Of a stretch of DNA of 64,000 nucleotides, positions 13,386 through 61,392 are shown piece after piece. Below the pieces are notes generated by a model that searched no databases, was not told where the DNA came from, and saw nothing but the letters and a program-made list of their open reading frames with translations. Position numbers and translations under genes: made by a program. This DNA is from Terriglobia bacterium (GTDB lineage: Bacteria; Acidobacteriota; Vicinamibacteria; Vicinamibacterales; CAVVIG01): positions 1 through 64,000 of the forward strand of contig JAIQFX010000001.1 in NCBI GenBank assembly GCA_020073005.1. The letters are read 5' to 3'. Position 1 is the stretch's first letter; each line of letters begins with the position of its first letter.

Positions 13386-14048
13386 CTAGTGGCCACGGGT
13401 CAGGAAACGACGGCCGTCGAGAGCCCAGCCACCGGCGAGTACCAGACGAATCGCCTCCGGATACAAACGGTGTTCTTCGACCAGGATACGGGCAGATAGC
13501 GTGTCGACGGTGTCGCCCTCGAGCACCGGGACGGTGGCCTGCAGCACGATCGGGCCGTCATCGAGCTGAGAGGTGACGAGGTGCACGGTGGCGCCCGTCA
13601 CGCGGACGCCGTGGTCCAGCGCCTGCCGCTGCGCGTCCAGCCCGCGGAACGACGGCAGCAGCGACGGATGGATGTTGAGGATGCGCTGCGGAAACGCGTC
13701 GAGCAGCGGCGCGCCGACCAGCCGCATGAACCCGGCGAGACAGACGAGCGTCACGCGGCGGGCGTTGAGCGCATCCACGATCGCGCGGTCGTACGCGTCG
13801 CGATCCGGAGAGTCCTTCGGGTTGATGAACAGCGCCTCGATGCCCGCGTCACGCGCGCGCGTCAGACCCTGCGCGCCCGCGCGATTCGAGATGACGACGG
13901 CGATCGTCGCGTCGAGCGTTCCGGCCGCGATGGCGTCGATGATCGATTGGAGATTCGATCCGCGCCCGGAAATGAGGACGGCGATGCGGGGACGGGAGTC
14001 GGTACGTACAGTACGATCCGACTCCCGTCCCCGCTGGTCGTTGGTCAT
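13386..14048 (-). CDS. purN: phosphoribosylglycinamide formyltransferase PurN with repeat-encoded N-terminus
   Basis: PurN transfers the formyl group of 10-formyl-THF to GAR, the third step of purine synthesis. The catalytic set is present: VLISGRGSNLQSII, NRAGAQGLTRA, LAGFMRL, the NIHPSLLPSFRG loop with Asn/His, and HLVTSQLDDGPI with the catalytic Asp. The 220-residue protein starts at ATG 14048. Residues 6-21 (RGRESDRTVRTDSRPR) are encoded entirely by a copy of the GGGGACGGGAGTCGG palindrome. PurN normally begins directly with the beta-strand IVVLIS; here no start codon lies between the repeat and RIAVLIS, so translation must pass through the repeat. The gene is cut off from purM by an antisense transposase gene. 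Confidence 0.92.
   Translation of the reverse strand: MTNDQRGRESDRTVRTDSRPRIAVLISGRGSNLQSIIDAIAAGTLDATIAVVISNRAGAQGLTRARDAGIEALFINPKDSPDRDAYDRAIVDALNARRVTLVCLAGFMRLVGAPLLDAFPQRILNIHPSLLPSFRGLDAQRQALDHGVRVTGATVHLVTSQLDDGPIVLQATVPVLEGDTVDTLSARILVEEHRLYPEAIRLVLAGGWALDGRRFLTRGH
13988..14032. repeat. family-1 palindrome in purN 5' end
   Basis: A 15-bp arm GGGGACGGGAGTCGG (13988-14002), a 15-base loop and the exact inverted arm (14018-14032) total 45 bp, a multiple of three. It is read in frame as purN residues 6-21 and lies about 60 bases from the RAYT start. Confidence 0.92.
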
Positions 14049-14090
14049 GGCACCTGCCTTGCGTCTCGGCCCACGCAGCCCAACCTAGTC

Positions 14091-14648
14091 ATGCCTCGAC
14101 GCGCGCGCCATTATTCGCCAAATGTCGTCTATCACGTTCTCAATCGAGGAGTTCGACGACTGACTCTCTTTGAAGACCCGTCCGAGTACGCAGAATTCGA
14201 ACAGACGATGTGGCAAGCATTGCAGCGCGTGCCGATTCGATTGTTGGCATATTGTGCCATGCCGAATCACTGGCACTTGATCGTCTGGCCGAAGGCAGTG
14301 AACGATCTCCCTCGCTTCATGCACTGGCTGACTTGTACGCATGCTCAACGCTGGCACGCACGTCGACGTACGAGCGGAACGGGTTATGTCTACCAAGGGC
14401 GATACAAAGCAATTCCAATTCAGTCCGAGGACGGGGTTCTTCGCGCATGCCGATACGTCGAGCGGAACGCCTTGAAGGCCGGACTCGTCGAGCACGCCGA
14501 GGATTGGCGCTGGTCGAGTCTGTGGAGACGCTGCAATTTCTGCGATGCGACAATGCTAGACGCCTGGCCAATCCCGATTCCTGAGGATTGGCTCAGCCAC
14601 GTCAACGCTCCCGCGGCTGGAGATCGACTCCCGTCCCCACGTACCTGA
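14091..14648 (+). CDS. REP-associated tyrosine transposase (RAYT, Y1/HUH family)
   Basis: The 185-residue protein starts MPRRARHYSPNVVYHVLNRG, the standard opening of the REP-associated transposase group. It has the HUH metal motif MPNHWHLIVWP (H60, H62) and YVYQGRYKAIPI. The segment RYVERNALKAGLV contains the probable catalytic Tyr (Y122), followed by WRWSSLW. Relatives nick single-stranded REP hairpins and are thought to spread REP sequences. It lies antisense between purM and purN, and its 3' end overlaps purM by 47 bases. Palindrome arms of one family flank it on both sides, the arrangement of known RAYT/REP units. The reading frame is complete and looks intact. Confidence 0.9.
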   Translation: MPRRARHYSPNVVYHVLNRGVRRLTLFEDPSEYAEFEQTMWQALQRVPIRLLAYCAMPNHWHLIVWPKAVNDLPRFMHWLTCTHAQRWHARRRTSGTGYVYQGRYKAIPIQSEDGVLRACRYVERNALKAGLVEHAEDWRWSSLWRRCNFCDATMLDAWPIPIPEDWLSHVNAPAAGDRLPSPRT

Positions 14649-15666
14649 CTCCCGTCCCCTCCACGACCCGGCCGAGACGCACGGCGGGTTCGCCAGCGGC
14701 GGCGAGGTCGGCCAGAAGACGATCGGCGTCGCGCGCGGCGCACGCCGCGATCATGCCGATGCCCATGTTGAACGCGCGAAACATCTCGTCGGTCGCGATC
14801 CCGCCCTTCTGCTGCAGCAGGCGGAACAGCGGCGGTACTTTCCACGCGCCACGATCGATTTCCGCCGCGCATCCGGCCGGAAAGATGCGCGGCAGATTTT
14901 CTGTGATGCCGCCGCCCGTGATGTGCGCGAGACCCTTGAGGACGCCGCGCGGGAGAAAGGGCCGCACGACCGGCAGATACGATCGATGCGTCGCCAGCAG
15001 CGCCTCGCCCAGCGTCGTGCCCAGCTCGGCGACCTTCATCTCGGGCGTCCACCCGGCGACGTCGAAGAACACGCGCCGCGCGAGCGAGTAGCCGTTGGTG
15101 TGCAGTCCGCTCGACGCCAACCCAATCAGCACATCGCCCGGAACGATCGCACGGCCGTCGATCAGTTTCGGCCGATCGACGACGCCAACGATGAAACCGG
15201 CGATGTCGTACTCGCCGTCGGCGTAGAAGCCGGGCATCTCCGCGGTCTCGCCGCCGATGAGCGCGCAGCCATTCTCACGGCACCCGCGCGCGACGCCCGT
15301 GACCACCTGCTCGGCCACGGCGGGCGACAGGCGGCCGGTCGCAAGATAGTCGAGAAAGAACAGCGGCTCGGCGCCCTGGACGAGGATGTCGTTGACGCAG
15401 TGATTGACGAGATCGGCGCCGACCGTGTCGTGGCGGCCCGTCATGAACGCGACCTTGAGCTTGGTGCCGACGCCGTCCGCGCTCGACACGAGCACGGGCT
15501 CCTGATAACGATCGCGATCGAGCTTGAAGAGGCCGCCGAACGAGCCGATCTCGGAGAGCACGCCGGGCGTGAACGTGCCGCGCGCGAGCGACTTGATGCG
15601 CCGGACGGTTTCGTTGCCGGCGTCGATGTCGACGCCCGACTGGCGGTAATCCATCGTCATGGACAT
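14602..15666 (-). CDS. purM: phosphoribosylformylglycinamidine cyclo-ligase PurM
   Basis: PurM closes the imidazole ring, turning FGAM plus ATP into AIR. The 354-residue protein has the family landmarks: SADGVGTKLKVAF, HCVNDILVQGAEPLFFLDY, CALIGGETAEMPGFY, LASSGLHTNGYSLAR and GLAHITGGGITENLPR. Its start is 4 bases from the purF stop. The C-terminus is unusual: residues about 336-348 (GTGVRYVGTGVD) are encoded by two direct copies of the family-1 repeat arm, and the last bases overlap the antisense transposase gene. Confidence 0.95.
   Translation of the reverse strand: MSMTMDYRQSGVDIDAGNETVRRIKSLARGTFTPGVLSEIGSFGGLFKLDRDRYQEPVLVSSADGVGTKLKVAFMTGRHDTVGADLVNHCVNDILVQGAEPLFFLDYLATGRLSPAVAEQVVTGVARGCRENGCALIGGETAEMPGFYADGEYDIAGFIVGVVDRPKLIDGRAIVPGDVLIGLASSGLHTNGYSLARRVFFDVAGWTPEMKVAELGTTLGEALLATHRSYLPVVRPFLPRGVLKGLAHITGGGITENLPRIFPAGCAAEIDRGAWKVPPLFRLLQQKGGIATDEMFRAFNMGIGMIAACAARDADRLLADLAAAGEPAVRLGRVVEGTGVRYVGTGVDLQPRER
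14625..14659. repeat. two direct family-1 arms in purM 3' end
   Basis: CGACTCCCGTCCCC (14625-14638) and TGACTCCCGTCCCC (14646-14659) are direct copies of the right arm of the palindrome family. They overlap both the end of purM and the end of the transposase gene. Confidence 0.85.
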
Positions 15667-17099: not shown

Positions 17100-19352
<2,253 letters not shown>

Positions 19353-46531: not shown

Positions 46532-47920
<1,389 letters not shown>

Positions 47921-61350: not shown

Positions 61351-61392
61351 GGGGACGGGAGTCGGAGGCAGCGTCAGCCGACTCCCGTCCCC
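61351..61392. repeat. family-1 palindrome at the TPR-gene 3' end, upstream of acs
   Basis: 15-bp arm GGGGACGGGAGTCGG (61351-61365), 12-base loop, inverted arm (61378-61392). The TPR gene stop (61374-61376, minus strand) lies in the loop, so its last residues (RGTGVG) are repeat-encoded; acs starts 17 bases away. Confidence 0.92.

Follow-up and report, generated by a model that had tools for sequence, protein, structure and literature searches.

How a purine-synthesis enzyme came to take its start codon and first residues from repetitive DNA is the question raised by purN (GAR transformylase; 13386 to 14048, minus strand, 220 aa). Read from the minus strand, the protein is MTNDQ-RGRESDRTVRTDSRP-RIAVLISGRGSN, and its family fold runs from residue 21, where the matches to Pfam Formyl_trans_N and NCBIfam TIGR00639 both start. 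A 45-bp family-1 palindrome lies in the purN frame at exactly 13988 to 14032 (minus strand) and encodes PurN residues 6 to 21, from the last two bases of codon 6 to the first base of codon 21; with flanks included, its inverted arms measure 24 nt and show 92% complementarity. The ATG at 14046 to 14048 (minus strand), on the side of the palindrome that faces the element, is the sole ATG, GTG, or TTG in frame, and the nearest upstream stop lies 13 codons before it. An earlier note on this DNA had proposed a repeat-derived PurN N-terminus with no start codon after the repeat, and both points were borne out; the leader is probably translated from the repeat. Judging from sequence, we consider it likely (roughly 0.8) that a RAYT mini-transposon at the purM/purN overlap replaced the purN start with its own ATG, that this type of capture recurs at the junction, and that PurN became dependent on the element.

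Between purM and purN, and divergent from the latter, we found an intact RAYT (Y1_Tnp transposase) gene (14091 to 14648, plus strand, 185 aa). Its product carries the Y1_Tnp domain (PF01797, 2.6e-11, 44.1 bits, cut-off 23) and matches the NCBIfam equivalog NF047646 with an E value of 6e-19 and 68.4 bits, against a cut-off of 80 bits. Both histidines of the HUH motif (H60 and H62) and Y122 are invariant in the RAYT alignment, Y122 being the presumptive catalytic tyrosine. No second strong RAYT match of this type was found in the genome, the next best having 34% identity. Arms of the dispersed family-1 repeat flank the gene on both sides, and the RAYT C-terminus (RLPSPRT) is itself encoded by repeat. 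On the purM side, the left element end of this genome (G000) is irregular, with two direct family-1 arms (14625 to 14659, minus strand) and no clean terminal inverted repeat (TIR). We read the element as a RAYT with palindromic end repeats that has lodged between two genes of purine synthesis in an acidobacterium from soil. Its insertion seems to have rewritten the PurM C-terminus too: the TIGR00878 match on PurM (purM, 14602 to 15666, minus strand) covers residues 5 to 336, and the last 18 residues (337 to 354) form an extra tail, much of which is encoded by the repeats. Ahead of the purN ATG, the stretch GCAAGGCAGGTGCC (14049 to 14062, minus strand) contains a Shine-Dalgarno-like AAGG and, by eye, resembles the presumably functional GCAA-N6-8-TGCC motif, which most of the purN-linked elements have beside the start of their RAYT (also by eye). 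Just upstream of the ATG, positions 14052 to 14071 form a 20-nt inverted repeat (90%) with 14670 to 14689 in the purM coding sequence, as if the new purN 5′ region had been copied, in inverted form, from this purM stretch.

The junction is empty in two relatives of the same genus, G022 and G023, where purN starts at a GTG overlapping the purM TGA (GTGA) and the proteins begin VKPRIAVLIS and VNRRIAVLIS, respectively. No RAYT match was found in either genome at E ≤ 1e-25. This agrees with the earlier suggestion that an insertion had cost purN its original start; the agent, however, would be the whole RAYT element of ~0.65 kb and not a single palindrome. The clean junction of G022 and G023 could possibly have arisen via precise excision. 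At the PurN N-terminus, the relatives had either no leader or a different palindrome, and we saw none among them that shared the leader yet lacked a palindrome. Family-1 repeats were fewer in the genomes without a RAYT match, the 14-nt form of the arm occurring 88 times in G000, 15 times in G022, and 14 times in G023, the assemblies of the latter two being less complete.

We searched 162 genomes of the order, many of them fragmented assemblies. Named relatives are mostly Acidobacteria MAGs, some from Vicinamibacterales. A RAYT adjoined purN in 22 of the 132 genomes with a purN match, in divergent orientation in all and mostly no more than ~150 nt from the conserved motif of purN; because several genomes are fragmented MAGs, a missing RAYT can be an assembly gap. 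TIRs bound most of the purN-linked elements, with the right TIR serving as PurN N-terminal code, whereas none was detected in four f11 g46 elements (G068, G069, G070, and G072). One example is G095, purM TACGTG[TAATGGGGTCGGGAGTCAT...ATGACTCCCGACCCCATTA]ACCGCC, in which the TAA is the purM stop and the ATG is the PurN start. The repeat-encoded PurN N-termini include MTPDPINRRLG (G095 and G111), MTPDPFFGRRIG (G089), and MGSDPSRRIA (G037). On the opposite side, the left end of the element contains, or completes, the stop codon of the gene upstream in G016, G075, G080, G095, and G111; by eye, the gene upstream of the element looks unlike purM in G075, G080, and three f11 genomes.

Repeat leaders were also present at purN in two genomes with no detected RAYT (G014 and G020), that of G020 resembling the leader of its sister G021 (ATGACAGTGCC..GGGGTACG.CCCC). 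In G015 (L008), a RAYT C-terminal remnant was seen by eye next to purN, which has a repeat leader there; this is possibly a decaying element. Capture was not confined to purN, since in G110 a RAYT that groups with the elements of G089, G095, and G111 supplies the start of meaB (MTSDPII...). A RAYT also adjoins the start of a thiO-like oxidase gene in G032 (L295, by eye) and that of an AMP-binding enzyme (PF00501) in G065 (L281), where the ATG lies inside the repeat; these may be further start captures.

The trees of the RAYTs and of their hosts suggest that RAYT elements captured the purN start more than once in related bacteria. A single ancient insertion at purN, inherited vertically and lost precisely again and again in most lineages, is the best placed of the alternatives and would fit the clustering of the purN-linked label on the RAYT tree (5 changes versus a shuffled mean of 16.6). 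However, a single clade of purN-linked RAYTs was rejected (AU p = 0.001), the presence of a RAYT at purN required 10 changes on the host PurN tree, at least 3 of them on well supported branches, and the GTGA overlap of G022 and G023 is clean, so that we regard this history as unlikely.

If PurN translation began past the repeat, at a non-standard codon, the repeat would be a mere 5′-untranslated hairpin, which appeared much less probable still. ATC and ATT codons do come after the repeat, and many REPs at the 5′ ends of ORFs are argued to be untranslated in Di Nocera 2013 (PMC3733652). Against this, G000 has no ATG, GTG, or TTG after the repeat, a Shine-Dalgarno-like AAGG stands ahead of the ATG, and all 22 purN-linked genomes have an in-frame start between the RAYT and the PurN fold with the frame open from that start into the fold; in the other two frames, only some of the genomes have an open path to a start. 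Most of the 22 lack any start after the repeat; in G034, G066, G094, and G102, such a start is present or a clear repeat could not be detected. The least probable account, which we strongly disfavor, is a lone REP palindrome inserted at the purN start beside a coincidental RAYT: lone repeats are common in the genome (28 of 48 sites in frame inside genes) and G014 and G020 have leaders without a detected RAYT, but the repeats here flank the RAYT on both sides, and a RAYT occupies exactly this place in one orientation in 22 genomes, mostly with its terminal repeat as the leader.

The earlier note expected a strong hairpin over the purN start region, which we did not find: the 17-bp stem in the purN mRNA (131-nt fold, −70.3 kcal/mol, z = −4.6) starts near +14, counted from the A of the AUG, so that the hairpin does not cover the start codon but follows shortly downstream of it. 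In the AlphaFold2 model of PurN, residues 1 to 20 have low pLDDT (45 and 66 for the two ten-residue blocks) and residues 21 to 100 have pLDDT of 97 to 98. The leader is therefore predicted to be disordered rather than a new structured part of PurN.

In the capture that we propose, a RAYT mini-transposon whose palindromic ends are inverted would have inserted at the overlapping stop-start of purM and purN (TGA/GTG), with loss of the original purN start. The end of the element would then provide the ATG from which PurN translation proceeds in frame via the terminal repeat into the enzyme, and PurM would read into the opposite end and terminate there. An overlapping gene pair could survive such an insertion because the element ends have no stop in the needed frame but offer usable start codons and, at the outer edge, stop codons, and the same properties would account for the recurrence at purM/purN. 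We infer that insertion, and not recombination, created each case. Host PurN may depend on the element's end, since deleting that end would cost PurN its start, and the repeat leader could therefore outlast the transposase. We can only tentatively extend this to RAYT ends being portable stop-start cassettes at gene junctions, which would tie purN (or meaB) to the element and be kept after transposase decay. Such a route would be a concrete way for a transposase to become locked in next to a metabolic gene even if the host gains nothing from it. The genomes also offer a natural series at one operon junction: site empty, element present, and element gone with the leader kept.

The element resembles the RAYT/REPtron systems with REPs and REPINs of Pseudomonas and E. 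coli in having a Y1 HUH transposase between palindromic repeats and one cognate gene with ~50 dispersed repeat sites, and its RAYT may cleave the cognate family-1 arm. It differs in that the repeats are not kept out of genes and that the end repeat is the purN start. TIRYT/TIRtron elements, described in PMC3733652 and including an Acidobacteria group, likewise have a RAYT-like transposase with longer TIRs that are often GGGG-led. TIRs occur in most purN-linked relatives, some with GGGGTCAG; G000, without a clean TIR, has an arm of its own (GGGGACGG) that does not match GGGGWSAS. Among intragenic REPs, the palindromic elements of Rickettsia and others also place in-frame palindromes that yield peptides in housekeeping proteins, some of them N-terminal; here, however, the repeats go with an identifiable transposase and have created a new start where two genes meet. 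In GTAG REPs (PMC3733652), the repeat end gives the neighboring ORF a stop codon (TAG), whereas here a single element ends one gene and starts the following one. PMC3733652 reports that REPs can lie inside ORFs and provide stop codons, and that Acidobacteria have RAYT relatives flanked by TIRs; in the sections read, no link of TIRYT/TIRtron to purN or to a start codon was found. Intragenic REPs are thus already known, and we found neither repeated RAYT capture of the purM/purN stop-start nor a paper joining purN and a tyrosine transposase in the literature searched, which mostly excluded subscription journals.

The 13-nt family-1 arm GGGGACGGGAGTC is found 105 times across the genome (5.86 Mb), while a reversed control gives 0, so the palindrome is not a chance occurrence; 10 exact arms lie in the window, the 64,000-nt stretch analysed. 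Among the family-1 sites read from stretches of the genome (the C171 site at 74325 to 74367 was left out), with coding frames assigned by a codon-usage score trained for this analysis, 28 of 48 were in frame and open inside coding sequence, compared with 64% of random windows. Intragenic placement is thus as expected from random placement, and family-1 is not predominantly extragenic, as REPs are held to be. These so-called extragenic palindromes therefore occur in coding sequence at chance frequency and add peptides to enolase, PurL, LeuS, GyrA, and other proteins, which bears on gene-start annotation.

At the same protein positions, the relatives carried either the same arms around a loop that has diverged, a different palindrome, or some short, unrelated sequence. 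The in-frame family-1 palindrome in enolase (47006 to 47047, plus strand) is common to G022, with identical arms and a diverged loop, and absent from G023. The shared intragenic repeats (47006 to 47047/L261 and L054/L248) have arms identical between species and diverged loops; loop identity by eye was 8/12 in enolase and 9/15 in LeuS, for comparison with a fourfold-site identity of 0.67 to 0.83. This pattern suggests that the arms are maintained. We dropped the idea that the loop is captured host DNA, the loops at shared sites looking homologous, though diverged, by eye. Where G000 has family-1 repeats in purL (in frame, 18147 to 18188, minus strand) and at the helicase sites, G022 and G023 have other palindromes (L243, L253, L268, and L270), such as GCGGGCC..GGCCCGC. 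Repeats thus seem to have colonised these protein loops more than once. An intergenic family-1 palindrome at 61351 to 61392 gives its upstream ORF a stop codon.
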